Of a DNA stretch of 64,000 nucleotides, positions 5,149 through 58,633 are shown in pieces. The position numbers and the translations under genes were made by a program. This DNA comes from Pseudomonas rhizosphaerae (GTDB lineage: Bacteria > Pseudomonadota > Gammaproteobacteria > Pseudomonadales > Pseudomonadaceae). The stretch is from positions 2,170,001-2,234,000 of the forward strand of contig NZ_CP009533.1 of NCBI RefSeq assembly GCF_000761155.1, in the 5' to 3' direction. Below the pieces are notes generated by a model. That model did no database searches, was not told where the DNA came from, and worked only from the letters and a program-made list of their open reading frames with translations. Position 1 is the stretch's first letter, and each line of letters opens with the position of its first letter.

Positions 5149-5194
5149 GGGTAATGCTGCCTCCTGAGGTCCGGCCCTTGCACCGCATTGACTG

Positions 5195-5284
5195 CTTCGC
5201 GGGCAGAGCCCCGCTCCCACAGGGTCCACATCGCACTCACACTTCACCACCCCACCCTGTGGGAGCGGGGCTCTGCCCGCGAAG
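5195..5284. repeat. Inverted pair of REP elements (GC-rich variant)
   Basis: A 31-base element at 5195-5225 (core GGGCAGAGCCCCGCTCCCAC) recurs as its reverse complement at 5254-5284, separated by 28 bases. The pair can form a long stem and lies between the ABC exporter and glutaminase genes, as expected for REP pairs mobilised in trans by REP-associated transposases. Confidence 0.8.
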
Positions 5285-5405
5285 AGTGCCCCACGGTCCG
5301 GCAGAGGTACCGCCAAGAGGTACCGCCACTCTTCTGCAGAACGGATCTGTGATGCGTTCGCAAGTACCGCCGTCTATGGCTTGATCCCTTGATGCGAGTA
5401 GCCCG

Positions 5406-43488: not shown

Positions 43489-44430
43489 TCATCGGTTTTC
43501 GTCCGCCGTGAGCGCGGCGCGGGTGGGCAAGCCTTCCATGTCACCTGGGCTCTGCACCGCCAGGCTGCCGATCCAGTTGCCGCGAGCGGCGGCCTTGGGC
43601 AGGTCGCGGCCTTCGAGCAGGGCACTGATGACGCCCACGGCGAAGCCGTCGCCGGCGCCAACCGTGTCCACCACTTTGTGCACTGGGCGTGCGGCCACAT
43701 AGCCCTGTTGCTCGTGGCTGCAGTAGAAAGCGCCGTCCGCGCCCAGCTTGATCACCACTGCGTGCACGCCCAGGTCCAGGTAGAAACGGGCGATGTCTTC
43801 GCAGCGTTCTTGCCCGGTCAGCAGCTGCCCTTCGGCCAGCCCTGGCAGTACCCAGTCGGCAAGGGCTGCAAGGCTGTTGACCTGCTCGATCATGTGCGCC
43901 TGGCTGGGCCACAGCGACGGGCGCAGGTTGGGATCGAACGACACGCTGCGGCCGCCCGCACGCATCTGCGTCATCAAGTGCCGCGTCAGCGCGTTCATGC
44001 TGGGCGACAGCGCAGGCGCAATGCCGGTCGCGTGCAGGTGACGCGCATCGAGCAAGCGCTCGGGCACATCGGCGATGCCCATATGGCTGGCCGCCGATCC
44101 GCGGCGGAAATATTCGACGCTGGGGTCCGTGCCGTCGTTCTGCAACGACTTGAACTGGAAACCGGTAGGGTGCTGCGGATCCACGCCGACGTGGCTGCAG
44201 TCCAGCCCCTCGCGTTGCAGCGCTGCGACGATGAAACGACCCAGGGAGTCGTCGCCCACGCGGCTCAACCAGCCAACGTCGAAGCCTAGCCGCGACAGGC
44301 CGATGGCAACATTGTTGTCAGCACCGGCGATGCGCTTGTTGAAGCGCTCGACATCGGCCAGTTCACCGGTCTGCTCGGCGACGAACATGGCCATGGTTTC
44401 GCCAAAGCTCAGTACATCGAACTCAGCCAT
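43489..44430 (-). CDS. kguK: 2-ketogluconate kinase (PfkB family)
   Basis: 313 residues. A ribokinase-fold sugar kinase beginning FDVLSFGETMAMFVAEQTGELADVERF, with RIAGADNNVAIGLSRLG near 33-50 and the anion-hole/catalytic-base motif DTVGAGDGFAVG near 255-266, whose Asp is the base. It phosphorylates 2-ketogluconate to 2-keto-6-phosphogluconate. Its first eight bases overlap the end of kguE. The next step, reduction by KguD to 6-phosphogluconate, has no gene in this operon. Confidence 0.93.
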   Translation of the reverse strand: MAEFDVLSFGETMAMFVAEQTGELADVERFNKRIAGADNNVAIGLSRLGFDVGWLSRVGDDSLGRFIVAALQREGLDCSHVGVDPQHPTGFQFKSLQNDGTDPSVEYFRRGSAASHMGIADVPERLLDARHLHATGIAPALSPSMNALTRHLMTQMRAGGRSVSFDPNLRPSLWPSQAHMIEQVNSLAALADWVLPGLAEGQLLTGQERCEDIARFYLDLGVHAVVIKLGADGAFYCSHEQQGYVAARPVHKVVDTVGAGDGFAVGVISALLEGRDLPKAAARGNWIGSLAVQSPGDMEGLPTRAALTADENR

Positions 44431-45205
44431 GGGCCACCTCCTGCGTGGCTCGGCCCAGCGCAGCCAAAGTCGCCACTTGTACCTGGCTGACAGCCAGCAG
44501 GTCGGCGCCCTGCAACGGGTACTCGATGGCCCGCACCAGGCCCGGCGCCATGTGCCGGAACAGGCGTGCCCACTGGTGCAGGTCGGTCAGTTCAGGTGGG
44601 GTCGCGACCAGCTTGCCGGCGGCGGTACGCTGTACCGCCTTGCAATGGATGTACTCCACGAACCGACCCAGCTGCAACGCTGCACTTGACACCGATTGTT
44701 GCTGCCACTGCCAGTTGCCGATGTCGAAGGTCATGCCCACGGGCAGACCCTGTTCGGCAACCGCGGAGAAGAATTTGACCAGGGGATCGATCCGCCCACC
44801 CTGGGCGGTCTGGTCGTTTTCGACGAGCAGGCGCACGGGCTGGCCGCGCAGCTGCTCGTGAAGCACGTTCAGGTCGCTTGCGGATGAATAGAACCCCAGC
44901 GAGACCTTGAGCCACACCGCGTCGCAGGCAACGGCCCGCGCCAGCGCCTGTTGCAACTGCGGGTTGGGAGCGGTCTGGCCGGGCTGCCACAGCTCCAGTG
45001 GCGAGGAATAGACACAGGTCAGTCCCTGGGCAGCGATCGCGCTGCGCAGGGCGGATGCATCGAAGCTGTCGAACAACTCTTCGCGCAACTCGATGTGGCT
45101 GGCGCCGATCTGGGCAACCAAGGGCGCCAACTGGCCCTGGCCCTGCGCGCGAACATAGTCCGCGCCGAAGCTGGATAGGCTGATGGAGACGGGATAGAGA
45201 TGCAT
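44423..45205 (-). CDS. kguE: KguE sugar-acid epimerase/isomerase-like TIM-barrel protein
   Basis: 260 residues; ATG with AGAGGA upstream. It is a xylose-isomerase-like TIM barrel (AP endonuclease family 2): SISLSSFGADYVRAQGQG, ASHIELREELFD, RLLVENDQTAQGG and GMTFDIGNWQWQQQ carry the metal-binding Glu and Asp residues. KguE heads the kgu operon in pseudomonads, and its exact reaction is not established. The PtxS palindrome ends 14 bases upstream of the start codon, so PtxS should block this promoter. Confidence 0.9.
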   Translation of the reverse strand: MHLYPVSISLSSFGADYVRAQGQGQLAPLVAQIGASHIELREELFDSFDASALRSAIAAQGLTCVYSSPLELWQPGQTAPNPQLQQALARAVACDAVWLKVSLGFYSSASDLNVLHEQLRGQPVRLLVENDQTAQGGRIDPLVKFFSAVAEQGLPVGMTFDIGNWQWQQQSVSSAALQLGRFVEYIHCKAVQRTAAGKLVATPPELTDLHQWARLFRHMAPGLVRAIEYPLQGADLLAVSQVQVATLAALGRATQEVAHG

Positions 45206-45218
45206 TGTTATTGTCCTC

Positions 45219-45232
45219 TGAAACCGGTTTCA
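45219..45232. promoter_or_regulatory. PtxS operator of the kgu operon
   Basis: TGAAACCGGTTTCA is a perfect 14-base palindrome, identical to the published PtxS site in P. putida and P. aeruginosa. It sits 14 bases upstream of kguE. Confidence 0.95.
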
Positions 45233-45270
45233 ATTTTAGGCATGGGTAACGCGCATGCGGTTGTGCTGAC

Positions 45271-46272
45271 TCAACGTGGCGGTGTCGAGCCTCGAATGAT
45301 CAATTCCGGGGTGAAGTGGAACGTCTGGGCCGGGCCCTGTGCGCCCTGCAAACGTTGCAGCAGGCACTCCAGGGCCTGCACGCCGATGTCGTGCGTGGGT
45401 TGGGCCAGGGCGGTGATGCCGTCGCCTACCAGTGGGTACCAGTCGAGGTCGTCGAGGGCGATCAGGCCCACCTCGTCGAAGCGCGCGCTGCCCAGTTCGC
45501 GCAAGGCCAGCGTGCAGGCCAGGGCCGCGACGCCGTTGGCGCAGAACAACGCCTTAGGGCTAATCTCGCTGCTGGCGAGAAACAAACGCAATTGTTCGAT
45601 GAGGCCGGCGCCGGTGTGAAACACAGGGCCTTGGGTGCGCCGCTCGAAGGCATCGATGCGTTCGATACGGGAACTGGTGCCGTCGACCGGTTCGCTGACC
45701 AAGGCGATGTGGTGATAGCCACGCTCTTGCAGATGATCGATGGCCATGTCGACGGCGAGCTGGTTGTCCAGCCCCACCAGGTCGCTGGGCAGGTGCGCGA
45801 CCTTGCGGTCGACCAGCACCATGGGCAGTTCCTGCTGCAGCTCGCGCAGTTCGTCCTGGTGGCGGCCCAAGGTGTTCACGATCAGGCCTTCGATGTTGTA
45901 GGCACGCAGGGCCTGCAACTGTTGGCGTTCCTGCTCGGGGTCGCGATCGGTGTTGCAGACCACCAGGCTGTAGCCATGGCGCCGGCAGGCGGTTTGCACA
46001 CCGTGCATGACGGCCACCGAGTAGGGGTTGCGGATGTCGGCCATGAGCATGCCGATCAGGCGTGTGCGACCACGCTTGAGGCCGCGGGCCATTTGATTGG
46101 GGCGATAGCCCAGCTCTTCGATGGTGCGGGCGATGCGATCGGCGATGGCGTCGGAGAGCAGAGCGCGATCCTCGCCGATGAAGCGCGAGACGCTGGCCTT
46201 GGAAACACCTGCACGCTCGGCGACGTCGAGCATGGTCACACGGGGGCGTGCAGTCACGGAAAGACGGGTCAC
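45271..46272 (-). CDS. ptxS: LacI-family regulator PtxS of 2-ketogluconate metabolism
   Basis: 333 residues from GTG 46272, with AAGGA nine bases upstream; the frame is open further but without a ribosome site. The N-terminal helix-turn-helix VTMLDVAERAGVSKASVSRFIG is followed by a LacI-type effector domain (LIGMLMADIRNPYSVAVMHG, IEGLIVNT, ALDDLDWYPLVGDGITALAQP). PtxS represses ptxS and kgu and releases DNA with 2-ketogluconate. Both predicted operators, one in front of kguE and one 46 bases upstream of this start, are perfect palindromes. Confidence 0.94.
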   Translation of the reverse strand: MTRLSVTARPRVTMLDVAERAGVSKASVSRFIGEDRALLSDAIADRIARTIEELGYRPNQMARGLKRGRTRLIGMLMADIRNPYSVAVMHGVQTACRRHGYSLVVCNTDRDPEQERQQLQALRAYNIEGLIVNTLGRHQDELRELQQELPMVLVDRKVAHLPSDLVGLDNQLAVDMAIDHLQERGYHHIALVSEPVDGTSSRIERIDAFERRTQGPVFHTGAGLIEQLRLFLASSEISPKALFCANGVAALACTLALRELGSARFDEVGLIALDDLDWYPLVGDGITALAQPTHDIGVQALECLLQRLQGAQGPAQTFHFTPELIIRGSTPPR

Positions 46273-46317
46273 GGCCTGGATCCTTTTATGGATGTTATGG
46301 GCAGGCGATCGATAGAT

Positions 46318-46331
46318 TGAAACCGGTTTCA
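46318..46331. promoter_or_regulatory. PtxS operator of ptxS (autoregulation)
   Basis: A second perfect TGAAACCGGTTTCA, 46 bases upstream of the ptxS GTG start, consistent with autorepression. Confidence 0.95.
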
Positions 46332-46434
46332 GGAAACACCAAATCGACGTGGCCGTCAACGGGGGAAGAGGGATATTTGCGCAGGCGATCGGGCGGGTGG
46401 GGCGTGCGTTTCAAGTCTGGAACCGCAGCGCGGC

Positions 46435-46560: not shown

Positions 46561-46914
46561 TCAACCGGCTGCGACGACGGTGATCTCCACCAACAGGTCA
46601 GGTGCAGCCAGGCGCGATTCCACGGTGGCGCGGGCTGGGGCGTGGCCTTCGGGGGCCCAGGCGTCCCACACCTCGTTCATGCCGGCGAAATTGGCCTGGA
46701 TATCCGACAGCCACACCTGTGCGGTGACGATACGGGTCTTGTCCAAGCCTGCCTGCTCCAGAAAATTGTCGATCTTGGCCAGCACCTGGGCGGTTTGCCC
46801 CTTGATGTCCAGGCTACGGTCGGTGGCAGTCTGGCCGCCCAGGAAGGTAAAGCCGTTGCACTGCACGACACGGCTCATGCGCTGGTTGGTTTCGATGCGT
46901 TTGATGTCCAACAT
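46561..46914 (-). CDS. RidA-family (Rid/YjgF/UK114) enamine/imine deaminase
   Basis: 117 residues from ATG 46914, with GAGGAA nine bases upstream. RidA fold with IETNQRMSRVVQCNGFTFLGGQTATD, the helix SDIQANFAGMNEVWDAW, and the substrate-carboxylate Arg in APARATVESRLAAPDLLVEI. Rid proteins hydrolyse reactive imines made by amino-acid and amine oxidases. The gene begins 12 bases past the stop of a DadA-like oxidase in the same transcript, which fits that job exactly. Confidence 0.85.
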   Translation of the reverse strand: MLDIKRIETNQRMSRVVQCNGFTFLGGQTATDRSLDIKGQTAQVLAKIDNFLEQAGLDKTRIVTAQVWLSDIQANFAGMNEVWDAWAPEGHAPARATVESRLAAPDLLVEITVVAAG

Positions 46915-46925
46915 GGTGTATTTCC

Positions 46926-48095
46926 TCACGAGTGGATAAGGGTTGTTGCAGGTTGTTCGAACGCCATCGCCGACTGCGCGAAACGCCCGATGGAAAAGGG
47001 ATCGAGACTGATCGGCGAGTGCTCGCCAAGGATTTGCTGGGCCAGCCGCTGGCCGGTTCCTGGGCCCATCTGGAAACCACTGCCGCAGAAGCCGAAGGAA
47101 TAGCTCAACCGTTCCGCCTTGCAGCTGGCGCCGATCACTGGGATGTCGTCGGCAGTGAAGGCTTCGACGCCTGCCCAGACGCGGTTCACACCCAGGTTGC
47201 GCAAGTGCGGGAACAGGTCGGTCACAGTCCGTGCGCTGGTGCTCAAGCGGTCCATCTGCACCTCGCCGTGGCGGGCGGCAAATTCCACCGACCCCACCAG
47301 CTTGCCGCCGATCACCACCGTGCCATTGGCAAACTGCTTGAACGACAGTGCGCGGCCCGTGGCGCCCAGCACGGGCGCGCAGAACGGTGCCACGCGGTGG
47401 GTGACCATCAGCATCAGGCCCTCGGGATGCACCGGCACCGGTTCGCCGACCTGCGCCGCCAGTTGCGCGGCCCAGGCACCCGCCGTGACCACCAGATGCT
47501 CGGCTTGATACACACCCGTAGGCGTATCCACGCGCCAGTGGTTGGCGGAACGCTCAATGCGCTGCGCCGGCGTCTGCTCGAAGATCTGCACACCCAGCCT
47601 TTGCGCTGCCAAACGGAAGGCGGTCACGGTGCGGTAGGGCACCGCGTAGCCGTCGCCGCTGACCCAGATACCGCCCACTACATGGGGCGCTACCGTAGGG
47701 ACCAGCTCCAGTACCTGTTGCCGATCGATCAACACCTCATGGGTAAAACCCAAGGCCCGTAATTGCTCCACGCGCCGTTGGCACTCCTGCAATTCCGCTT
47801 CGTTCTCGGCAAGTTTCAGCTGGCCGCTGGCGACGAAGCCGCCGTCTTCACCCAGCACGTCCTGCAGGCCGTGCCAGAGCGCTCGCGAAGCGAGTGCCAA
47901 AGGTATTTCCTCCACGTGGCGGCCCAAAGTGCGCACGCCACCGGCATTCACCCCGGAGGCATGCCGCCCACAGTATTCGGCCTCCAGCACGGTCACGCGC
48001 ACCCCGGCGCGCGCCAGGTGCAGGGCAGTGCTCAGGCCGTGGATACCGCCGCCGATCACCAGTACGTCAGCGCCTTGGCGCAAAGAGTCAGTCAC
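46926..48095 (-). CDS. DadA-like FAD oxidoreductase, catalytic subunit (HcnC/OoxB-like)
   Basis: 389 residues from GTG 48095, with GGGAG nine bases upstream. D-amino-acid oxidase fold: the FAD motif DVLVIGGGIHGLSTALHLARAG, VTVLEAEYCGRHASGVNAGGVR, and a C-terminal CGSGFQMGPGTGQRLAQQI. This is the oxidising subunit of heteromeric dehydrogenases such as HCN synthase, opine oxidases and D-hydroxyproline dehydrogenase. The start overlaps the preceding BFD-FAD subunit gene by eight bases. The substrate, presumably an N-substituted or D-amino acid, is unknown. Confidence 0.82.
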   Translation of the reverse strand: MTDSLRQGADVLVIGGGIHGLSTALHLARAGVRVTVLEAEYCGRHASGVNAGGVRTLGRHVEEIPLALASRALWHGLQDVLGEDGGFVASGQLKLAENEAELQECQRRVEQLRALGFTHEVLIDRQQVLELVPTVAPHVVGGIWVSGDGYAVPYRTVTAFRLAAQRLGVQIFEQTPAQRIERSANHWRVDTPTGVYQAEHLVVTAGAWAAQLAAQVGEPVPVHPEGLMLMVTHRVAPFCAPVLGATGRALSFKQFANGTVVIGGKLVGSVEFAARHGEVQMDRLSTSARTVTDLFPHLRNLGVNRVWAGVEAFTADDIPVIGASCKAERLSYSFGFCGSGFQMGPGTGQRLAQQILGEHSPISLDPFSIGRFAQSAMAFEQPATTLIHS

Positions 48096-49464
48096 CCGCC
48101 AATTCTCCCAAGGTGATGGGCTTGATCGGCGGACGGATCCGGTAATAGCCGACGTCGCCTGGCGCTGCCGCCCGGGCCTCGGCGATCACTTCAGTGACCG
48201 TCAGACCACACAGGCGTCCTTGGCACGGGCCCATGCCGCAGCGCCCGAACGACTTCGCCTGGTTTGGCCCGGCGCAGCCCATGGCGACGAATTCGCGCAA
48301 TTGGCCGGCGGTGACTTCTTCACAACGACAGACGATGACCTCGTCGGTCGGGATGCGATGTTCGTCGCGGGGCCGATAAAGAACGTCCAGAAACGGCCGG
48401 ATGCGCAGGTTGTCGTTCAATTCCTGGCGCAGGTCCACGCCACGCTGGTCGCGCTGCGGAGCGCCCAGTGCGCCCAGTCGTGCAGCGATGCCCAAGGCCG
48501 CCAGCCGACCCTGCAGCGCCGCGGCTTGGGCACCGCCAATGCCACCGCCATCACCGGCGACGAACATACCCGGCACGTCCAGCTCACCCCAGCTGTCCCT
48601 GAGTGGGCTGAAGCACAGCTGCTGCGTATCCCAGGCATGGGTCGCCCGCAACGACTGGCTGAACTGGATATTGGGCACCACACCTTGATGCAGCAGCACG
48701 CACCGGGTAGCGATGCGCTCGGTCTTGCCCTGAACACTGAAACTCAGCGCCTGGGCTGAATCACTGCCTTCGACCGCCAGGGCCGTGGCGCCCGTGAAAT
48801 GGGGGATGCGCGCCTGGCGCAGGCTGCGCATCAGTTGCAGACCCTTGCGCAGGTAGGGCCAAGCGCGCAGTGCCGAGACCAGATGCCGCCGCGCGCGCCA
48901 ATAGTCGTCGCGGTGGGTCGTGTCGACCAACGCCTTGATCGGCACGCCTGCGCGCAGGTACTGCCAGCCCAGCAGATACAGCAACGGTCCGCAGCCGGCC
49001 AGTACCACCGGCTCGACAGGCGCGGCACCCGCGCTCTTGAGCAGGATCTGTGCGGCGCCCGCAGTCATCACCCCTGGCAGGGTCCAGCCGCGGATCGGGA
49101 AGGGCCGCTCCATCGCGCCGGTGGCCAACAGCACCGCGCGAGCCTGTAACGTGTGCATGCGCCCGCTGTGCAGATAGCTCACTTGATGATCGCGACTCAC
49201 CTGCCACACAGCAGCCTCTTTGATGTGCCGCACCGACGTGTTCGCCAGCGCCTTGGCCAGTACGTTGCCATGTGCGTAGTCCGGTCCCAACAGGTCGCGC
49301 CGGCTCAGCGGGGCTAGCGTGATGCCGCGGTAGATCTGCCCGCCGGGGCTGCCTTGCTCGTCCAGCAACACCACGTTCAAACCAAGCCCGGCCAGGTCGG
49401 TGGCCCCGGCCATGCCAGCGGGTCCAGCACCCACGACGACGACATCGACCGATTCAAGGGTCAT
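48088..49464 (-). CDS. FAD/NAD-binding oxidoreductase with BFD iron-sulfur domain (HcnB/OoxA-like)
   Basis: 458 residues from ATG 49464, with GGAGG eight bases upstream. It has a first dinucleotide motif DVVVVGAGPAGMAGATDLAGLG, a second nucleotide-binding region PVVLAGCGPLLYLLG, and a C-terminal BFD-like domain with VIVCRCEEVTAGQLREFVAMGC and FGRCGMGPCQGRLC (about residues 375-425), whose four cysteines would hold a [2Fe-2S] cluster. It is the electron-transfer subunit of the HCN-synthase/opine-oxidase type. Its start overlaps the 2Fe-2S subunit stop. Confidence 0.84.
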   Translation of the reverse strand: MTLESVDVVVVGAGPAGMAGATDLAGLGLNVVLLDEQGSPGGQIYRGITLAPLSRRDLLGPDYAHGNVLAKALANTSVRHIKEAAVWQVSRDHQVSYLHSGRMHTLQARAVLLATGAMERPFPIRGWTLPGVMTAGAAQILLKSAGAAPVEPVVLAGCGPLLYLLGWQYLRAGVPIKALVDTTHRDDYWRARRHLVSALRAWPYLRKGLQLMRSLRQARIPHFTGATALAVEGSDSAQALSFSVQGKTERIATRCVLLHQGVVPNIQFSQSLRATHAWDTQQLCFSPLRDSWGELDVPGMFVAGDGGGIGGAQAAALQGRLAALGIAARLGALGAPQRDQRGVDLRQELNDNLRIRPFLDVLYRPRDEHRIPTDEVIVCRCEEVTAGQLREFVAMGCAGPNQAKSFGRCGMGPCQGRLCGLTVTEVIAEARAAAPGDVGYYRIRPPIKPITLGELAGD

Positions 49465-49829
49465 GGCTGCACCTCCAGCACCTGCACCAAGGGCACGTCG
49501 AATTGCAGATCGCGGGCGCCTTCCTGGGAGTGCACCTGCATACCGTCGACCACCTCGATCAGGCAGCTTTGCCGATTGGGCACGCCATCGATGTTGACCA
49601 GGCACTCGAAACACACACCCATCATGCAGTAAGGCGCGCGCGGCGATTCGCTTACAGGCGTGGCGCGGAAGCGTTCCACGCCCGACATCAACAGGGCTGC
49701 GGCGACGCTGATGCCCGGCGGTACGTTCAGGGCCTCGCCGTTGAAGCTTAGGGTCACGCTGCGACGGCTGGGGGTTTCGCTGGCCACCGCCTGGAACAGC
49801 GGGGCGCGGCTATGGGCTTCAATGGGCAT
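49461..49829 (-). CDS. [2Fe-2S]-binding small subunit (HcnA/OoxX-like)
   Basis: 122 residues from ATG 49829, with AAGGTG eight bases upstream; the TTG at 49835 is an alternative. A ferredoxin-like domain has Cys68-x4-Cys73-x2-Cys76-x12-Cys89 (CMMGVCFECLVNI...QSCL), the pattern of the small subunit of HCN synthase-type dehydrogenases. It probably passes electrons to the respiratory chain. Overlaps exist with both flanking genes, which implies stoichiometric co-translation. Confidence 0.85.
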   Translation of the reverse strand: MPIEAHSRAPLFQAVASETPSRRSVTLSFNGEALNVPPGISVAAALLMSGVERFRATPVSESPRAPYCMMGVCFECLVNIDGVPNRQSCLIEVVDGMQVHSQEGARDLQFDVPLVQVLEVQP

Positions 49830-50958
49830 GGGCAAGCACCTTGTCGCTGAGAAAACGTTCGCCGTTGAACACGGCCAATTCGTCGGGTTGTGCGCCGCCC
49901 ATCACCCACGGCGCGATGCGCAGGGCATGGGCAGCGGCCAGGGTCACGCCGCTGTGGCAGGTGATCACGTAAGCGCCGGGATGAGTTGTCGACTGCTGAT
50001 AGATCGGGAAACCGTCCGGGCTCATCACCCGCAGCGCTCCCCAGGCGCGGATCAGGCGCACATCGCGCAGCAGCGGAAAGGTCGCCACGCCACGCTGGGC
50101 AATGGCCGAGAGCACGCGGGTGGACGTGCTGTCGTCGAAGCCGACCTCTTCCATCGAGTCGCCCAGCTGGACCGTGCCTTCGTCGGTTTGGCGAACGTTG
50201 ATGGTGGGGTAGTCGAGAAACGGCTGGACCCGCTCGCTGACCAGTACCTGGCCACGGTTGGGCGCGACCGGCGCGTGCAGCCCGACCTGCGCGGCCAGCC
50301 CGGGGTTGCCCAGGCCGGCGGCGAGCACCACGCGCGGCGCGCAATAGGCCTGCTCGCCGACCCGGACGCGGAAGTCACCGGCGCCGCCCTCGATGCGCTC
50401 GATGTGTTGGCCACCGACGAAACGCGCGCCGTGATGCTGCGCCGAAGCGTGCAGGGCACGCAGCAGTTTCAGCGGGTTCACGTGGCCGTCCTGGGGCGTG
50501 TAGCTGGCGCCGACCACGGCCTTGCCGATCAGCGGCAGGCGCGCTTTGAGCTCGGCGGCGTCGAGCATCTCGAAGGGATAGTCACCGACCGCGACCTGCA
50601 ACTGCCGCAGCCGGGATTCGCGCTCCAGCAAGTCTTCATCGCTGAAGCACATGTGAAAGCCGCCCGGTTGCTTGAGGCTGACATCCACGCCGCTGTCGGC
50701 CAGCAGCGCATCGCGCAGGCCGGCCCAGCGCTGCGCTGAAGACCGGGTCCAGCGCGCATAGTCGGGCAGGTTGTAGCCCTTGCCCTGCACCCAGACCAGC
50801 CCGAAATTGCCGCGCGAGGCGCGAAAGGCGTCGTCGCCCTGGTCGAGCACCACGGTGTCGGCCCCTTCGCGCGCCAGTCCGTAGGCGACCGCCGTGCCCA
50901 CCAGCCCGCCACCGACGACGATGACGTCGGCGTTGATCGCTGCCGTCGAATGCTTCAT
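49819..50958 (-). CDS. DadA-like FAD-dependent amino-acid/amine oxidase
   Basis: 379 residues; ATG preceded by AGGAGA. D-amino-acid oxidase fold: the FAD motif DVIVVGGGLVGTAVAYGLAREG, the substrate-side region ASRGNFGLVWVQGKG, and a C-terminal CHSGVTLAAAHALRIAPWVMGG. It is distinct from, and not a duplicate of, the second DadA-like gene of this operon (46926-48095), so the operon has two amine-oxidising flavoproteins. It lies directly after the permease gene with a four-base overlap. Confidence 0.83.
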   Translation of the reverse strand: MKHSTAAINADVIVVGGGLVGTAVAYGLAREGADTVVLDQGDDAFRASRGNFGLVWVQGKGYNLPDYARWTRSSAQRWAGLRDALLADSGVDVSLKQPGGFHMCFSDEDLLERESRLRQLQVAVGDYPFEMLDAAELKARLPLIGKAVVGASYTPQDGHVNPLKLLRALHASAQHHGARFVGGQHIERIEGGAGDFRVRVGEQAYCAPRVVLAAGLGNPGLAAQVGLHAPVAPNRGQVLVSERVQPFLDYPTINVRQTDEGTVQLGDSMEEVGFDDSTSTRVLSAIAQRGVATFPLLRDVRLIRAWGALRVMSPDGFPIYQQSTTHPGAYVITCHSGVTLAAAHALRIAPWVMGGAQPDELAVFNGERFLSDKVLAHAH

Positions 50959-51752
50959 TTGCCTTCTCCTATCAGCACGCGATCCAGACCCACCAGGCGA
51001 TCGAGCACCAGCATCAGGATCAGCGTGCCGACGATCAACACCGTCGATACCGCCGTGATCAAGGGATCGATGGTCTGGGAAATCTGGTTGTACATCGCCA
51101 CCGGCAGCGTAGTGGTGCCCGGCGTGGCGACGAAGACCGTCATGGTCAGTTCATCGAAGCTCTGGATGAACGCCAGCATCCAGCCGCCCACCACGCCGGT
51201 GCGGATGCGCGGCAGGATGACGCGATGAAACGCGGTCCAGCGTTTGGCCCCCAGCGACAGCGCGGCCTGCTCGATGTCTTTCTCCAGGCCGATGGTTGAG
51301 GCCAGGGTCAGGCGCAAGGCATAGGGCAGCACGACGATGACGTGGGTCAGGCACAGCGCCCAGAACGAACCGCCGATCTGGGCGATGGAAAAGAAGCGCA
51401 GGAAAGCGATACCCAGCACCACCGAGGGAATCATCAACGGCGAGAGCAGGAAGCCCGTCAGCGTACCGCGACCGGGAAAGTCGTAGCGGCTGATGGCCAA
51501 GGCCGCCGGGATGGCCAGCAGGGTGGCGATGGTGGCCGAGGCCAGGCCCAGCTTGATCGACAGCGCGAACGCGTCAAGCATTTCCTGGTTGTCCAGCAAG
51601 GCCCTGAACCAGCGCAGCGACAGGCCGTCGGTCGGCAGGGACAAGTACCCTTTGTCGGTGAACGCCATGGCCATCACCACCAGTAGCGGCGCGACGATGA
51701 AGGCGATGAACAGGATATGGAACAGCAGCGAGAAAAAACCGTTCTTGTGCAT
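50955..51752 (-). CDS. ABC importer permease (PotC-type)
   Basis: 265 residues with about six hydrophobic segments and the permease EAA motif AALSLGAKRWTAFHRVILPRIRTG in a cytoplasmic loop. It belongs to the spermidine/putrescine/iron/thiamine-type (binding-protein-dependent 2-component) permeases. It pairs with the PotB-type gene that precedes it by six bases and with the ATPase and binding protein upstream. The substrate is not a certain polyamine; the linked oxidases point to an amine or amino-acid derivative. Confidence 0.87.
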   Translation of the reverse strand: MHKNGFFSLLFHILFIAFIVAPLLVVMAMAFTDKGYLSLPTDGLSLRWFRALLDNQEMLDAFALSIKLGLASATIATLLAIPAALAISRYDFPGRGTLTGFLLSPLMIPSVVLGIAFLRFFSIAQIGGSFWALCLTHVIVVLPYALRLTLASTIGLEKDIEQAALSLGAKRWTAFHRVILPRIRTGVVGGWMLAFIQSFDELTMTVFVATPGTTTLPVAMYNQISQTIDPLITAVSTVLIVGTLILMLVLDRLVGLDRVLIGEGK

Positions 51753-51758
51753 GGCGGC

Positions 51759-52631
51759 CTACTCGAAGACTTGCTTGAAGCGGCGCTCGGCCAGCTTGCT
51801 GCAACCCAGGATGATGATCAGATTGGCCACCAGCAGCAGCATGGCGATCGCTGCGCCGAGGGGCCAGTTGAGGGTGCCGAGAAATTCGTCGTAGGCAGCG
51901 GTGGCCACCACCTTGAGCCGGCGTCCGCCGATGATCGCCGGGGTGGCGAAGGCCGAGGCGGCCAAGGCGAAGACAATGATCGAGCCGGAGAGGATGCCCG
52001 GCATGATCTGCGGCACGATGATGCGCCGGAACACCGTCAGGCGGGACGCACCAAGGGACAGGCCGGCCCATTCCACTTGAAGGTCCAGGCGCTGCAAGGT
52101 GGCCCACACCGCGATCACCATGAACGGCACCAGCACGTGGGTCAGGGCAATGATCACGCCGACCTGGGTGAACAGGATCTTGACCGGTTCGTGGGTGATG
52201 CCCAGAGCCTGCAGCGCATCGTTGATCAGGCCGTTGTTGCCCAGCAGGATCGCCCAGCCCAAGGTCCGTACCACCACTGAAATCAGCAACGGACCCAGCA
52301 CCACCAGCAGGAAGGTCGAACGCCAGCGCGGCGCCATGCGCGCGATGATGATGGTCTCCGGCACGCCCAGCAGCACACACAACAGGGTGACGGCCAGCGC
52401 CATGGCGCCGGTGCGCAGGAAGATCTCGTGGAAATAGTCGTCCTTGAACACTTCGAGGTAGTTCGCCAGGCTGTATACCGGCAGCACGCCTTCGGTGTCG
52501 CTGAACAGGTTGAGCGACAGCAGCGCGGTCAGTAGCAGGGGCGCCAGCAGCAACGCAATGAACACCAGCAGTGCGGGGCCACTGAGCAGCCAGGGTGCTG
52601 CGCCGACGTGTTCGGCATCATACCTGGCCAT
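51759..52631 (-). CDS. ABC importer permease (PotB-type)
   Basis: 290 residues from ATG 52631, with GGGAGG eight bases upstream and 14 bases of overlap with the ATPase gene. About six hydrophobic segments; EAA motif region EWAGLSLGASRLTVFRRIIVPQIMPGI. It is the partner of the PotC-type permease, and both together make the membrane channel. The overlaps make a single operon from ATPase to oxidase. Confidence 0.87.
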   Translation of the reverse strand: MARYDAEHVGAAPWLLSGPALLVFIALLLAPLLLTALLSLNLFSDTEGVLPVYSLANYLEVFKDDYFHEIFLRTGAMALAVTLLCVLLGVPETIIIARMAPRWRSTFLLVVLGPLLISVVVRTLGWAILLGNNGLINDALQALGITHEPVKILFTQVGVIIALTHVLVPFMVIAVWATLQRLDLQVEWAGLSLGASRLTVFRRIIVPQIMPGILSGSIIVFALAASAFATPAIIGGRRLKVVATAAYDEFLGTLNWPLGAAIAMLLLVANLIIILGCSKLAERRFKQVFE

Positions 52632-53691
52632 GGGCAGCCTCCCGGTCGAGCAGCCGCAGGTCATCGTCCGACCAGTCCAGGCCGACTTCGCTGCCTTCGG
52701 CCGGCGGCACGTGGCCCAGGTTCGGCTGGGTCATGTGGACCAATCCGAAATGACTGTCCACGGCAATCAACCACAGGTTGCCCAGGAACACGCGCAGACT
52801 GATGCGGCCATTGATCCGTCCCAGCCCCGGTTCGGTCAGGCGGATCTTCTCGGGGCGGATGTACACATTGACGTCCAGCCCCAGTGAACGGTCCTCGTGG
52901 GGCACGTGCAGCAGGGTGTCGCGCACCTGCACATGGCAGCAGCGCTCGTTGCGCAGCTGCACGGCACCGGCGAAGGCGTTGGTCTTGCCGAGGAAGGCCG
53001 AGGCAAACGGCGAATGGGGACGTTCGTAGGCTTCGAAGGGCGTATCGATCTGCACGATGCGACCGCGCTGCATCACGGCAATGCGGTCGCTCATGGTCAT
53101 CGCCTCGACCTGGTCATGGGTCACCAGAATGGTCGTGATGCCCAGCTCGCGTTGAATCGCCCGCAGCTCGATGTGCATTTCTTCGCGCAGCTTGGCATCC
53201 AGGTTGGACATCGGTTCGTCGAGCAACAGCAGGTTGGGACGGATGGCCAGGGCACGGGCAATGGCCACGCGCTGGCGCTGGCCACCGGACAGGGCCTTGG
53301 GGTAGCGCTCGCCAAGCCCGCCCAGGCGCACCAGATCCAGCGCCTCGATGACCCGCTTGGCGCGCTCGGCATTGGCCACGCCGCGCATTTCCAGACCGAA
53401 GCTGATGTTCTGCGCAACCGTCATGTGCGGGAACAGCGCATAACTCTGAAAGACGATGCCCAGGCCGCGCTCTTCCGGGCGCACGTGGGTGATATCGCGT
53501 CCGTCGAGCACGATGCGCCCCTGGGTCGGTTGGACGAACCCGGCGATCGACTGCAAGGTGGTGGTCTTGCCACACCCGGAAGGACCGAGCAGGGCGACGA
53601 ATTCGCCGTGCTGCACTTCCAGGCTCAGTTCGTCGATGGCTTTGAACGTACCGAAGTTCTTGACGAGGCCTTCGAGTGTCAAAAATGCCAT
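52618..53691 (-). CDS. ABC importer ATPase (PotA-type)
   Basis: 357 residues. Walker A LLGPSGCGKTTTL near residues 36-46, Q-loop FQSYALFPHMTV, signature LSGGQRQRVAIARAL, Walker B LLLLDEPMSNLD, H-loop THDQ. The C-terminal TOBE domain (about 265-350) follows DVNVYIRPEKIRLTEP. This is the PotA/FbpC/UgpC branch with all catalytic residues. It drives import for the PotB/PotC-type permeases encoded next. The start has no strong ribosome site. Confidence 0.9.
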   Translation of the reverse strand: MAFLTLEGLVKNFGTFKAIDELSLEVQHGEFVALLGPSGCGKTTTLQSIAGFVQPTQGRIVLDGRDITHVRPEERGLGIVFQSYALFPHMTVAQNISFGLEMRGVANAERAKRVIEALDLVRLGGLGERYPKALSGGQRQRVAIARALAIRPNLLLLDEPMSNLDAKLREEMHIELRAIQRELGITTILVTHDQVEAMTMSDRIAVMQRGRIVQIDTPFEAYERPHSPFASAFLGKTNAFAGAVQLRNERCCHVQVRDTLLHVPHEDRSLGLDVNVYIRPEKIRLTEPGLGRINGRISLRVFLGNLWLIAVDSHFGLVHMTQPNLGHVPPAEGSEVGLDWSDDDLRLLDREAAHGQV

Positions 53692-53761
53692 GGCTTTGCC
53701 ACGCAGGCGTGCGCCTGCGGCTCCTGAAAAGGGTCGGGAGAAATCGAGCAGTGCGGTGGGA

Positions 53762-54814
53762 TCAGCGCTCGACGGTACGGTTCCAGCGCGTGGTCCATTC
53801 GCTGCGCTGCTGGTTGATCGTCTCCCAATCGACCTTGATCAAGGCGCTGACCTTGTCCGGACCGTAGGGCATGCGCGCGGCAAGCTCGGGGCTCAACTGA
53901 ACGGTCTTGTTGACCGGTGCGAAACCGTTCTCGCGGGCCTGAATGGCCTGAACCTCGGGCGACAGCACGTACTGGATGAAGGCCTGCGACAACGCCGGCT
54001 CGGCATTGGGTGTCACGCCGCAGGCGGCCAGCAGCAAGGCCACGCCGCCTTCCTTGGGGTAGATGAACTTGAGCGGGAAACCGGTGCCCTGCAGGGCCAC
54101 GGCGCGACCGCTGCCATAAACGGCCATGACCACGTCGCCGTTCTGCATCATGCCGTCCATTTCCCCAGGTGCCGAGACCCAGGCCAGCACGTTCGGACCG
54201 ATCTCGTCCTTGAGAGCCTTGAAGCCGGGGTCGATGTTCTTCTCGCTGCCGCCGCGCAGGCGGGCCATCTCCACCAGTGTGTGCAGGCCGTAGGTATTGG
54301 TCACCGGTGGCATGCCCAGCAGTTGCTTGTAACGCGGATCGGCGAGGTCTTCCCAGGAGTCGGGCGCCTCCCAACCGCGCTTCTTGAAGGCTTCCTCGTT
54401 GTAGCCGATGCCGGTGGCGACCATGCCAATGCCGGTGGCCTCCGGGCTCAGGCGGGCCAGTGGGTAGAGGTCCTGGTAGACCGGCGCATCGCTGAGCGGG
54501 CCGCACAGACCTTGCTGCAGCGCCTGGTACATGGGGCCGTCGTCCATCATGGCGACGTTGATCTGCTGGCGGCCTTTCTGGGCTTGCAGCTTGGCCAGGG
54601 TTTCGGTGGAGTTGCCAGCCACATAGACCACCTTGACATCGTGCAGCTTTTCGAATGCCGGGATGATCTTGCTCTTGTACATCTGCTCGGTGGAGCCGCC
54701 GACGCCGGCGACGTAGAGAGTCGAGGCGGCGTGGGCGCTGGCGCAGCTCAAGGCAGCGAAAGCGAGGGCGACGCGCAGGGAAGTGAAGCGAAAGGACGGT
54801 TGTTGGCTATTCAC
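53762..54814 (-). CDS. ABC importer binding protein (PotD/FbpA-like)
   Basis: 350 residues from GTG 54814, with GGAG eight bases upstream. A signal peptide ends near ASAHA (residue 29). The mature domain (TLYVAGVGGSTEQMYKSKIIPAFEK) is a type 2 periplasmic binding protein of the putrescine/iron(III)-binding family, with TGIGYNEEAFKKRGWEAP as the second-lobe landmark. It is the first gene of the operon and is divergent from the LysR regulator. The ligand is unknown; spermidine or a related amine is one possibility. Confidence 0.86.
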   Translation of the reverse strand: MNSQQPSFRFTSLRVALAFAALSCASAHAASTLYVAGVGGSTEQMYKSKIIPAFEKLHDVKVVYVAGNSTETLAKLQAQKGRQQINVAMMDDGPMYQALQQGLCGPLSDAPVYQDLYPLARLSPEATGIGMVATGIGYNEEAFKKRGWEAPDSWEDLADPRYKQLLGMPPVTNTYGLHTLVEMARLRGGSEKNIDPGFKALKDEIGPNVLAWVSAPGEMDGMMQNGDVVMAVYGSGRAVALQGTGFPLKFIYPKEGGVALLLAACGVTPNAEPALSQAFIQYVLSPEVQAIQARENGFAPVNKTVQLSPELAARMPYGPDKVSALIKVDWETINQQRSEWTTRWNRTVER

Positions 54815-54979
54815 AGACTATCTCCGAAGTGCAGGGGGCAGATCGAACAATGCGTCGGTCGCTCCGGCGAACCGGGGCCACGCATGCGCTGTGCATGCTC
54901 CCGGCCGTAAGCCTCGCCGGGTAACGCATCTTGGTGTGCGCTATGTGCTGCTGGGCTTGAGTATTGCGAGGGGTGCGGT

Positions 54980-55025
54980 ATATGGTCAAATACGGATATC
55001 GGGCCTAGTCATGCATATTTGATAT
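54980..55025. promoter_or_regulatory. Inverted repeat between lysR and the transport/oxidase operon
   Basis: ATATGGTCAAATA (54980-54992) faces TATTTGATAT (55016-55025) with 23 bases between and few mismatches. Such a dyad in the gap between a LysR gene and its divergent operon fits a LysR-type binding region, which is often T-N11-A. It overlaps the first bases of the longer LysR frame. Confidence 0.5.
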
Positions 55026-55035
55026 GGAGGCATCA

Positions 55036-55932
55036 GTGAATCTCAGGCAGATCGAAGCATTCCGCAGTGTGATGCGCATGGGCTCGATGACGGCAGCAGC
55101 CGATGTGCTGTACACCTCGCAACCCAATGTCAGCCGACTGATCGCGCAACTGGAGTTGAGTACCGAGCTGACCCTGTTCAAGCGCGCCGGTGTGCGGCTC
55201 ATTCCCACACAGGAGGGCAGGGCGTTCTTTCAGGAAGTGGAGCGCGCCTTCGTCGGGCTCGACAGCCTCAAGCACTCAGCCAAGAACATCCGCAACCTGG
55301 GCACCGGGCGGCTGCGCGTGGCGGCAGTGCCTTCCATGGGCATGAGCGTGATCCCGGAGGTGCTCAAGACCTTCACTTCGACCCGTCCGGAGTTGACGGT
55401 GTCGCTGCACGTGAACTCGTCGCAGACCGTCGAGCAATGGGTGAAATCGCAATTCTGCGAGATCGGCATCGTGGTGCACCCGGGCGATGTGGTGAACCAT
55501 CAGGTCGAGTTGTTGGCCGAGGTTCCGGCAGTCTGCGTATTGCCGGCGGCCCATCCGCTGGCACAGCGCGAGAGCATCACCTTCGGTGACCTGCACGGTC
55601 AGCCGTTCGTGTCGTTGTGCCACGGCGACGGCACTCGGGCTCTGGTGGACAGGTTGTTCGAGCAGGCCGGGGTCGAGCGTGTCATGGCGGTGGAAGCGCA
55701 GTACGGCGCGATCAACTGCGAGATGGTCGCCCATGGCATGGGTATTACCCTGGTACATCCGCTGGTAGCCCGGGATTACCTGCACCGTGACATCGTGGTC
55801 CGGCCTTTTCACCCGGACATTCCCTTGCCAACCTACGTGATCTGGCCGCACACGGAAAACCGTACCCTGTTGGCCGAGGATTTTATCGACACCTTGAAGG
55901 CCTATTTTCGCCAGCTGACGAAGACCTTCTAA
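55036..55932 (+). CDS. LysR-family regulator of the adjacent operon (NocR/OccR-like)
   Basis: 298 residues from GTG 55036, with GGAGG five bases upstream; a longer frame from ATG 55024 lacks a proper ribosome site. The N-terminal winged helix (MNLRQIEAFRSVMRMGSMTAAADVLYTSQPNVSRLI, about 1-36) and the effector domain with VHPGDVVNHQVELLAEVPAV follow. The protein resembles NocR/OccR, which sense opines, and is divergent from the uptake-oxidation operon. Likely an activator of that operon. Confidence 0.82.
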   Translation: MNLRQIEAFRSVMRMGSMTAAADVLYTSQPNVSRLIAQLELSTELTLFKRAGVRLIPTQEGRAFFQEVERAFVGLDSLKHSAKNIRNLGTGRLRVAAVPSMGMSVIPEVLKTFTSTRPELTVSLHVNSSQTVEQWVKSQFCEIGIVVHPGDVVNHQVELLAEVPAVCVLPAAHPLAQRESITFGDLHGQPFVSLCHGDGTRALVDRLFEQAGVERVMAVEAQYGAINCEMVAHGMGITLVHPLVARDYLHRDIVVRPFHPDIPLPTYVIWPHTENRTLLAEDFIDTLKAYFRQLTKTF

Positions 55933-56076: not shown

Positions 56077-58431
56077 TTACATGACCTGGTCGGCCAACGG
56101 GAGGGCGTGGGCCATGTCTTCGGCGCGGGCCTGGGCCTTGTGCAGGGTGACGGGTATGGACTTGGCGGCCGGCACCTTGCTCTTGCTCGCGTAATGCCAC
56201 AGAGGAATCAACGCGTTGCATTCGGGGTAGTAGGCGCCGGCGCAATTGATCGGGATGTTATAGGCGATGATCTGCATCGGCCCTACTTCGCGCCGCACCC
56301 CAGGCTCGATGGCGGTACGGAGGGTGACCCAGTCACCGGGATGGAAGCCCAGCCGAACGATGTCATTGCGGTTCATGAAGATCACGCTGCGGGTGCCCTT
56401 GACCCCGCGGAAACGGTCTTCGTAACCATACACCGTGGTGTTGAATTGATCGTTGCTGCGCAGTGTCATCAACTGCAACACATCGCGCTGATCACTGTTC
56501 TTCGAGACATCGTCGTCTTCGTCCAGGGTCTTGGCCGTGACGAACTGGGCCTTGCCCGAGGGCGTGGTCCATTTGCGCTCGCAGGCGCCCAAGGGTCGGT
56601 GGAAACCACCGGGCTCCCACATCCGCGTTTCCATGTCATGGAAGATCTCGGGGTAGGTCTGGGCAATGGCCTCGCGCACGCGGGCATAGTCCTGACGCCA
56701 CAGCTCCCACGGAATCTGCTCGCGACCACTGAGGGTCGCCTGAGCCAGGCCGGCGATGATTGCCAGCTCGGCGCGCAAGTGTTCGCTGGCCGGTTCTGCG
56801 CGGCCTTCCCAAGCCCGGATGCAACCGGTGCTGTCCTCGGTGGTGTAGACCTGACGGCGACCGTCCTGTACGTCGCTTTCGATGCGACCCAGGCAAGGCA
56901 GCAGCCAGCCATGTTGGCCTGGGAACAGATGGGTGCGGTTGAGTTTGGTGGCAATCTGCACGTTCAGCGTCAGGTCGGCCCACGCGGGCTCGATGCGATC
57001 GGTGTCGGGCACAGCGCGCAGGAAGTTGCCACCCAGGCCGATGAAGCCTTTCACCGTCCCGGCGACGATGCCCTCGCAGGCGTCTACCGTGGCCATCCCT
57101 TTTTTCTTCGGCACCTGGATGCCGAACAGCGATTCGATCTTGTCCGCAGGGACCTTCGCCGGATCCTCGGTGATGCCTACGGTCCGTTGCCCCTGCACGT
57201 TGGAATGCCCGCGCACAGGGCAGATGCCAGCGCCGGGCTTGCCAATGTTGCCGCGCAGCAGCAGCAGGTTGACCAGCATCTGCACGTTCTGTACGCCATG
57301 ACGGTGCTGGGTCAGGCCCATGCCGTAAATGATCATCACCCGATCGCTGCGGGCATACACGGTCGCCGCCGCTTCCATCGCCGCACGATCCAAACCACTG
57401 CGCTGCTCCAGCGCTGTCCATTCATGCTGGTCGACCTGGGCCAGGAATGCGTCCACGCCCTCGGTGTGCTCGGCAATGAACGCGTGGTCGATCACGGCGG
57501 GGCGACCCTCGGCCTGCGCCGTGCGATCCATGGCCAGCAGCGCCTTGGCGATGCCCATGACCGCCGCGGTGTCGCCGCCGATGGCCACCTGATGATATTG
57601 CGTGCTGATCACCGTGGAATCGGGACCGAGCATTTCCACCGGCGACTGCGGATTGACGAAACGCTCCAGGCCCCGTTCGCGCAGCGGGTTGAAGCTGATG
57701 ATCGGCACCTGACGCTTGCGCGCTTCCTGCAACGGGTGAAGCATGCGCGGGCTGTTGCTGCCTACGTTCTGACCGAAGAAAAAGATGCAGTCGGTGCGTT
57801 CGAAATCATTCAAGGACACCGTGCCGACCGGCACCCCGATGCTTTCCTGCAAGCCGACCGAGGTGCTTTCGTGACACATGTTCGAACTGTCGGGCAGGTT
57901 GTTGGTGCCGTAGGCACGGGCCAGCAACTGGTACATGAACGAGGTTTCCAGCGACGCACGGCCCGAGGCGTAGAAAATCACGCTGTCGGGTTCCAGGCCG
58001 CGCAGCTGCTCGCCGATGCCTTGGTAGGCTTCTTCCCAGGTGGTGGTCACGTAGCGGTCGCTGGTCGCGTCGTAGCGCATCGGATGGGTAAGGCGGCCGT
58101 GGCGTTCGAGCTCGTAGTCGCTCCAGGTCCGCAGCTCGGTCAGGCTGTGCTTGGCGAACAGTTCCGGGCCGGTGCGCAAGGCAGTCAGCTCCCAGGCCGT
58201 GGCCTTGGCGCCGTTTTCGCAGAATTCCAGGGCGTGCGGGTTGCCCGGCTTGGCCCAGGCACAGCTGACACACGCAAAGCCATCGGGCTTGTTCTGCTTC
58301 AGCAATGCCGCCGGACCCTTGCCCAGGGCCTGCTGGCGCCAGAGGATATTCATCACCGAAAACGCCGATCCCCAGCCTCCGGAGGACGAGGTGTAGGGCT
58401 GATAGCGCGCTTTGGGATGAATGATTTGCAT
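56077..58431 (-). CDS. FdhF/YdeP-family molybdopterin oxidoreductase
   Basis: 784 residues from ATG 58431. The N-terminus has FACVSCAWAKPGNPHALEFCENGAKA, with three cysteines where formate dehydrogenases bind a [4Fe-4S] cluster, then LTHPMRYDATSDRYVTTTWEEAYQGIG and the Mo-pterin-binding FFFGQNVGSNSPRML, with a C-terminal molydopterin dinucleotide domain from about 650. The family (E. coli YdeP, linked to acid resistance) has an unknown substrate. No fdhD or partner subunit is adjacent. It is divergent from the malic enzyme. Confidence 0.88.
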   Translation of the reverse strand: MQIIHPKARYQPYTSSSGGWGSAFSVMNILWRQQALGKGPAALLKQNKPDGFACVSCAWAKPGNPHALEFCENGAKATAWELTALRTGPELFAKHSLTELRTWSDYELERHGRLTHPMRYDATSDRYVTTTWEEAYQGIGEQLRGLEPDSVIFYASGRASLETSFMYQLLARAYGTNNLPDSSNMCHESTSVGLQESIGVPVGTVSLNDFERTDCIFFFGQNVGSNSPRMLHPLQEARKRQVPIISFNPLRERGLERFVNPQSPVEMLGPDSTVISTQYHQVAIGGDTAAVMGIAKALLAMDRTAQAEGRPAVIDHAFIAEHTEGVDAFLAQVDQHEWTALEQRSGLDRAAMEAAATVYARSDRVMIIYGMGLTQHRHGVQNVQMLVNLLLLRGNIGKPGAGICPVRGHSNVQGQRTVGITEDPAKVPADKIESLFGIQVPKKKGMATVDACEGIVAGTVKGFIGLGGNFLRAVPDTDRIEPAWADLTLNVQIATKLNRTHLFPGQHGWLLPCLGRIESDVQDGRRQVYTTEDSTGCIRAWEGRAEPASEHLRAELAIIAGLAQATLSGREQIPWELWRQDYARVREAIAQTYPEIFHDMETRMWEPGGFHRPLGACERKWTTPSGKAQFVTAKTLDEDDDVSKNSDQRDVLQLMTLRSNDQFNTTVYGYEDRFRGVKGTRSVIFMNRNDIVRLGFHPGDWVTLRTAIEPGVRREVGPMQIIAYNIPINCAGAYYPECNALIPLWHYASKSKVPAAKSIPVTLHKAQARAEDMAHALPLADQVM

Positions 58432-58633
58432 GGTCGTGGTCCTTGGCTGTGGAAGCCTGGATGAATCAGGCCTGCATTTACGACGGCGACCGGTTGGCAA
58501 AGGTTCGAAGAGCTTTCCGAGCCGCCGAATCCAAGCCCTTTCGGCACCCATGAACTGCGCGAGCAGAGCGGCCAGCGCTGGCGCCACGGCGACGATTGCG
58601 CTAAAACCGATGGCACCCTTTGGCAAAGGCGTC

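Follow-up and report, generated by a model that had tools for sequence, protein, structure and literature searches.

The closest assayed counterpart of the locus treated here is the opine dehydrogenase gene set of Bradyrhizobium japonicum USDA110 (bll7193-7190), whose order is OdhB1-C-A-B2 and whose products were expressed and assayed (PMC4575208). There the alpha and gamma subunits are common to two complexes, one with each beta subunit, and each of these oxidises octopine: the B2 complex has a kcat/Km of 224 per min per mM and a Km of 19.5 mM, the B1 complex a kcat/Km of about 1. BjOdhB2 co-purifies with OdhA and OdhC, and because A and C associate preferentially with B2, the authors consider the B2 complex the only one of physiological relevance (PMC4575208). 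Watanabe et al. 2015 also purified a nopaline-acting enzyme of the same kind encoded in Pseudomonas putida KT2440 (PMC4575208), and D-hydroxyproline dehydrogenase, HcnABC and archaeal L-proline dehydrogenase have the same heterooligomeric plan of DAO-family, [2Fe-2S] and flavin adenine dinucleotide (FAD)/BFD subunits (PMC4575208). We describe a ten-gene cluster at positions 46561-55932 of a 64,000-nucleotide stretch of Pseudomonas rhizosphaerae (contig NZ_CP009533.1, 2,170,001 to 2,234,000), the window, which is most likely a well-preserved member of an operon kind already described from Bradyrhizobium and a crown-gall plasmid.

Two groups of crown-gall plasmid operons come near it. The octopine operon of pTi1D1609 consists of occR, the divergent occQMPT, ooxB, a [2Fe-2S] gene, ooxA, a RidA gene and ocd; it shares with the window the divergent LysR gene, the B-C-A-RidA order and a matching operator pattern, and differs in its OccQMPT-type importer, the absence of B2 and the terminal ocd. 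The sacEFGH genes of pTiEU6, a plasmid known here by its paper, form the same four-gene two-beta set, and that paper cites the B. japonicum work (PMC6733357). Together with lecFGH of pTiBo542 they belong to succinamopine/leucinopine systems, whose opine dehydrogenase has two betas in sac and a type-2 beta in lec; their importers, SacABCD and LecABCD, are of another ATP-binding cassette (ABC) type (PMC6733357). LecH falls in the clade of the window B2, and the LysR protein nearest lecFGH is 29% identical to that of the window. The B. japonicum set agrees with the window in its four enzyme genes, their order and the two beta types, and the eight neighbourhoods examined in other Bradyrhizobium genomes also have the lysR and potDABC genes. 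The sequence-only reading had taken two DAO subunits beside a PotD-type importer for an uncharacterised layout, a view overtaken by the assayed OdhB1-C-A-B2 set (PMC4575208) and its occurrence in pTiEU6 (PMC6733357).

As that reading had it, one plus-strand lysR gene is divergent from nine tightly packed minus-strand genes, and all ten were found with the strands and domain types it gave. The order of transcription is PotD-like solute-binding protein (53762..54814; SBP_bac_8), PotA-like ABC ATPase with TOBE domain (52618..53691; PF00005, PF08402), PotB-like ABC permease (51759..52631, start ATG 52631; PF00528), PotC-like ABC permease (50955..51752; PF00528), a first DAO-family protein, DAO1 (49819..50958), a [2Fe-2S] protein (49461..49829; PF13510), a FAD/BFD protein (48088..49464; Pyr_redox_2, Fer2_BFD, SO_alpha_A3), a second DAO-family protein, DAO2 (46926..48095; PF01266), and a RidA-family imine/enamine deaminase (46561..46914; Pfam PF01042). 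The open reading frame (ORF) of the FAD subunit opens at 49614, but the start codon is ATG 49464. Behind a 70-bp potD/potA gap come a 14-bp potA/potB overlap, a 6-bp potB/potC gap and overlaps of 4 bp (potC/DAO1), 11 bp (DAO1/[2Fe-2S]), 4 bp ([2Fe-2S]/FAD) and 8 bp (FAD/DAO2); ridA lies 11 bp beyond DAO2 if it starts at ATG 46914, or overlaps it by 4 bp with the possible start GTG 46929. Because the genes from potA to DAO2 overlap or lie 6 bp apart, with ridA within 11 bp, one transcript is likely.

On sequence grounds DAO1 is B1 (odhB1, type-1 beta subunit of OoxB/NoxB type), the [2Fe-2S] protein is C (odhC, gamma), the FAD/BFD protein is A (odhA, alpha, with an FAD domain and a C-terminal BFD-type [2Fe-2S] domain) and DAO2 is B2 (odhB2, type-2 beta subunit of the flavin opine dehydrogenase), so that the order is odhB1-C-A-B2. 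Identity to the products of the pTi1D1609 octopine operon is 43, 58, 46, 40 and 37% for DAO1, [2Fe-2S], FAD/BFD, RidA and LysR, the first and third figures being those for OoxB and OoxA; DAO1 and the alpha subunit are each 40% identical to NoxB and NoxA, respectively. The beta, gamma and alpha genes adjoin and overlap in the window and have the same order in pTi1D1609 and pTiC58, and ridA lies downstream of alpha as its counterpart does after ooxA in pTi1D1609. The beta subunits were placed in a tree of 65 DAO rows (an earlier 49, from which a long-branched row and an unrelated D-amino acid dehydrogenase were dropped and to which 18 were added), in which the Bradyrhizobium rows come from genomes other than USDA110. 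DAO1 grouped with OoxB, NoxB and Bradyrhizobium B1 (support 100/98), and DAO2 with Bradyrhizobium B2, pTiBo542 LecH and a second cluster of the same genome (100/99). Both clades exclude the beta subunit of a hydroxyproline-type cluster of the P. rhizosphaerae genome and a putative HcnC trio (L028/L031/L032), whose Hcn-like label rests on gene order and length alone.

Cofactor motifs of the window agree with those of OoxA/B/C and LecF/G/H. The gamma motif C-X4-C-X2-C-X11-12-C is present in the window protein (as C-X4-C-X2-C-X12-C), OoxC, NoxC and LecF. All seven alpha subunits tested (window, OoxA, NoxA, LecG, Bradyrhizobium, Azospirillum and hydroxyproline cluster) have a C-terminal Cys-X-Cys...Cys-X4-Cys with a middle gap of 25-36 residues; the printed motif C-X-C-X15-20-C-X4-C matches none of the seven, the actual gap being longer than in PMC4575208. 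Both betas have an N-terminal GxGxxG and the R-X-W motif proposed for flavin mononucleotide (FMN) (PMC4575208), as RAW at 304 in B1 and RVW at 305 in B2. The residue that follows is Arg in 4/4 type-1 betas and the hydroxyproline-type beta, and Glu in the three type-2 betas tested. Identities, motifs and beta clades thus bear out the opine oxidase type of trimer that had been proposed.

We put at roughly four in five the probability that this operon serves uptake and oxidation of an opine-type secondary-amine dicarboxylic acid or a close relative. Opine oxidases release an amino acid and a 2-oxo acid. The substrate would be an N-(carboxyalkyl) amino acid of the octopine/nopaline/leucinopine class, imported by the PotDABC-type ABC importer. 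OdhA and OdhC would form a shared electron-transfer core pairing with either catalytic beta, OdhB1 or OdhB2, as in B. japonicum; the secondary amine would be oxidised to an imine that is hydrolysed to amino acid and 2-oxo acid, with electrons passing towards the respiratory chain. RidA, judged by its family and recurrent gene place, may speed hydrolysis of the released imine/enamine, and we infer that the OccR-like regulator, acting at an operator in the lysR/potD junction, would induce the operon in response to the compound.

The LysR-type regulator (55036..55932, plus strand; PF00126, PF03466) is 37% identical to OccR and its Protein Data Bank (PDB) match is the OccR ligand domain 5vvh, in keeping with the suggestion that it resembles opine sensors. 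GTG 55036, which has GGAGG closely preceding it, is a more probable start than ATG 55024. The lysR/potD junction holds an inverted repeat, TCAAATA-N23-TATTTGA, that as a pattern (spacer 20-26) is unique in the 4.685-Mb genome. A wider pattern that contains this repeat, ATAWCAW-N27-ATTKGAC, came from a comparison of 63 sequences and marks a candidate LysR operator and -35 region at 54985..55025 (minus strand), its second half resembling a -35 box (TTGAC). The pattern gave 34 matches in these 63 sequences (1.27 Mb), all between lysR and the first operon gene; with spacers of 22-32 allowed, the spacer was 27 in 33 of these and 28 in one, and a reversed control gave 0. In the P. rhizosphaerae genome it occurs once, at the window lysR/potD junction. 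It was found in 33/40 Pot-type loci and in 1/14 others, that one being occR-occQ of pTi1D1609, and also in a Microvirga locus that was added once the pattern had been settled. In occR-occQ, the inverted repeats bound by OccR have their centres near -33 and -64 (PMC5002191). As a separate observation, ATG 55024, which starts the longest lysR ORF, falls within the candidate operator.

The gene-order search that had been proposed returned the ten genes in the same order at 11/11 named Pseudomonas loci, with the FAD/BFD protein at 77-92% identity; these were all the loci found in a scan of named species genomes, and such recurrence indicates that the window arrangement is not chance. Of 148 genomes sampled evenly across the family (this one included), nine others carry the FAD/BFD protein at 57-71% identity: the ten genes are complete in seven, DAO2 is missing from one, and both DAO2 and the importer are missing from another. 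The close form appears in none of the 18 other genomes of the same genus among the matches listed, a list that omits 17 unmatched genomes. Given this patchy occurrence within the genus, the cluster has probably moved horizontally. Across the phylum, an even sample held DAO1 at E <= 1e-40 in 27/398 genomes (this one included); 20 stretches were retrieved from 19 of the 26 others, and the remaining 7 include 5 with a stop inside the match. The unit stands on plasmid or large-replicon records of Burkholderia, Caballeronia (C. zhejiangensis mapped), Azospirillum, Thioclava and Microvirga.

Altogether 54 DAO1-bearing sequences were compared, rows that are not independent (L061/L062 are one species, L111/L125 one genome, and many are near relatives). 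All four Pot genes are present in 40, of which 37 have B2, one of the three misses (L109) ending at a contig edge; B2 was found in 0/14 loci without the full Pot set, a 25% match in L125 not being counted and L110 being cut off at a contig edge. A strict association of B2 with the Pot importer was ruled out by Agrobacterium vaccinii (L130), which has B1-C-A-B2 with another importer; since pTiEU6 does likewise (PMC6733357), the pairing is only a tendency. The order lysR-potDABC-B1-C-A-B2 was found in all eight Bradyrhizobium neighbourhoods matching DAO1 in the phylum sample, with ridA detected in 6/8 and one full-length alpha match in each genome; the genus label (g124) was taken from a 96% match with a named Bradyrhizobium protein. 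Because of this constancy the published B. japonicum cluster probably includes a Pot-type importer too. Literature searched by the USDA110 locus names turned up nothing beyond PMC4575208, and a search on Pot-type opine importers turned up only the separate potABCD-like set of pTiEU6 (PMC6733357), which is no proof of absence.

Two sets may be broken or mis-sequenced: in L129 (pAt2788b, 3945-5343) the annotation splits the alpha gene of a PotABC-B1-C-A-RidA set into two overlapping parts, and in L115 (Bradyrhizobium, G181, 12442-13544) the B2 match lies in two adjoining pieces in different frames.

The P. rhizosphaerae genome holds a second cluster with a Pot-type importer, in the C1:434755 region (about 432500-439100; L043, 7062-13545), which has the order potABC-C-A-B2-potD and by its sequence is probably another opine-type dehydrogenase operon. 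It differs from the window in that B1 and ridA were not detected there, and its enzyme genes are 30-37% identical to those of the window. A similar arrangement occurs in L045-L047, where a gamma match was not found.

Several results weigh against the opine reading or narrow it. B1, A and B2 are 45-48% identical to their counterparts in Bradyrhizobium genomes other than USDA110, and a DAO1 match was found in only 68/117 sampled Bradyrhizobium genomes, with neighbourhoods mapped for eight. Several beta rows in the 65-row tree are long-branched, NoxB and OoxB among them, and a 36-row alpha tree joins the window alpha with Nox and Oox only moderately (93/80 and 86/87). Octopine may be a stand-in rather than the natural substrate, because the B. 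japonicum B2 complex has so high a Km for it and the B1 complex is nearly inactive (PMC4575208). The ornithine cyclodeaminase family was not found in the P. rhizosphaerae genome, where PF02317 gave no match in a search whose controls were silent too; released arginine or ornithine would then enter general catabolism, and a Pseudomonas isolate with no arc, odh or ocd in its oox-like regions still grew on octopine (PMC10745273). The operator pattern was derived from the same sequences as its first count and was not found in 7/40 Pot-type loci or in the pTiBo542, pAt2788b and A. vaccinii stretches. Similar spacings are known in other LysR-type systems (PMC5002191), so that the likeness to occR-occQ supports a common regulatory origin without being proof that octopine is sensed. 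Elsewhere, B1-C-A-RidA modules stand near TRAP, tricarboxylate-type and His-type transporters, racemase-like genes and a D-amino acid dehydrogenase, and this family may also serve non-opine imino acids. Since TRAP, tricarboxylate-type, His-type or Occ-type transporter genes lie near those relatives of the core that lack Pot genes or B2, the module has been fitted to several imported compounds.

In a Sulfitobacter plasmid (L069, 18068-21293), genes for gamma-aminobutyric acid (GABA) transaminase, dimethylarginine dimethylaminohydrolase and guanidino-oxopentanoate decarboxylase lie ~6-10 kb past a TRAP-type B1-C-A-RidA set, a hint of arginine-derived substrates there.

The alternative that survives best, though we think it rather unlikely, is an operon for a non-opine imino or amino acid (N-methylated, D- or cyclic), with two betas for two steps or stereoisomers. 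The fold family does include D-hydroxyproline and archaeal L-proline dehydrogenases (PMC4575208), and some relatives keep suggestive company: a Comamonas B1-C-A-RidA set lies near alanine racemase and D-amino acid dehydrogenase, that of Pseudomonas MPC6 near mandelate-racemase-like genes and a BCCT transporter, and that of P. sprentiae near an enolase-like gene. Both window betas nevertheless fall apart from the hydroxyproline-cluster beta in the 49-row and 65-row trees, and of the layouts with assayed products the nearest belongs to an octopine dehydrogenase (PMC4575208). Nor is any flanking partner widely shared at one place among the 26 most shared ORF groups of 38 loci, judged by eye and distance. 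The widest group, an SDR family, was rejected as a partner: copies besides the query at 79-94% lie 3.1-4.8 kb away in 5/8 Bradyrhizobium loci, and there are just 30-43% matches at differing places in 4 other loci, the remaining groups spanning at most three lineages. As no gene family is kept beside it across lineages, the unit appears complete as it stands.

Specific pathways of this sort were also considered. A hydroxyproline role was set aside in view of a separate locus of the same genome (C1:1804000-1823500, L048), where a DAO/[2Fe-2S]/FAD trimer stands beside a 4-hydroxyproline epimerase (by eye) and a dihydrodipicolinate-synthase-like gene and which is by its gene content a probable hydroxyproline cluster; its beta pair and the putative Hcn trio form clades apart from the window betas. 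Hydrogen cyanide (HCN) synthase was rejected because the window has two betas, with B1 before gamma, whereas HcnABC has a single beta after alpha, and because both betas fall outside the Hcn-like clade; gene order and DAO tree therefore uphold the preference for catabolism over HCN synthesis. For a homarine-type pathway, the word was not found in the 10 papers listed out of 816 literature matches.

It has also to be asked whether DAO2 is an independent oxidase of DadA/ThiO/SoxB type for a different step. Its clade is separate from that of DAO1, and B1-C-A occurs without B2 in several loci. The sequence-only reading had likewise called it a DadA-like oxidase of its own; it is not specially DadA-like, and among PDB sequences it matches best to glycine oxidases and to 1y56_B, a chain that bears the label sarcosine oxidase. 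We take 1y56_B to be the beta chain of a Pyrococcus heterooligomer, and 1y56 is the only form in which the archaeal L-proline dehydrogenase was met in our searches. Against independence stand the co-purification in B. japonicum noted above and the retention in B2 of the motif proposed for FMN (PMC4575208), together with gamma-alpha-type-2-beta sets without B1 in the P. rhizosphaerae genome and on pTiBo542. An independent DAO2 is accordingly improbable, and the best reading of the protein is that of a second, alternative beta subunit of the same enzyme.

Ordinary spermidine/putrescine uptake with amine oxidases is a very improbable account, favoured by the PotABCD-like names of the transporter families and the label of putative spermidine/putrescine transport on many binding-protein relatives (one source) and opposed by each of the following results. 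All four proteins fall below the NCBIfam cut-offs for PotA, PotB, PotC and PotD (352/482, 156/348, 161/326 and 44/582 bits), and the PotA-like ATPase is also below that for PhnT2. In a profile alignment to Escherichia coli PotD, uncertain by about one position, its ligand residues D168, E171, W229, W255 and D257 face neither acidic nor Trp residues. The PotD-like protein has an AlphaFold2 model of mean predicted local distance difference test (pLDDT) score 91.6 and PDB matches to the common binding-protein fold, which names no ligand; in the fold comparison, equal or higher scores go to chains for GABA, sugar phosphates or pyridoxal phosphate. The term PotABCD-like therefore stands as a statement of family and fold, and polyamine binding is not supported by the sequences.

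Opine catabolism is generally presented in the context of crown gall. The opine reading of the cluster, with a ten-gene unit of one order in gamma-, beta- and alphaproteobacteria, mostly outside tumour plasmids in the loci examined, suggests that opine-like iminodiacids are an ordinary soil source of carbon and nitrogen. A further step, tentative and to our mind possible rather than probable, would be a widespread opine-class pathway independent of crown gall, in which a Pot-type binding protein is dedicated to a common N-(carboxyalkyl) amino acid of soil or plants, two betas are swapped for stereoisomers or side chains, and a conserved operator is common to Pseudomonas, Burkholderiaceae, Bradyrhizobium and the octopine tumour-inducing (Ti) plasmid. 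Sensor, binding protein and two alternative catalytic subunits make a compact, testable set for substrate discovery, and the common operator offers a means to predict further opine operons.

Judged by eye, the products of minus-strand genes on either side of the cluster resemble a sugar kinase of PfkB type, an isomerase-like TIM-barrel protein and a regulator of LacI type at 43489-46359, and a large molybdopterin formate-dehydrogenase-like protein at 56077-58626.

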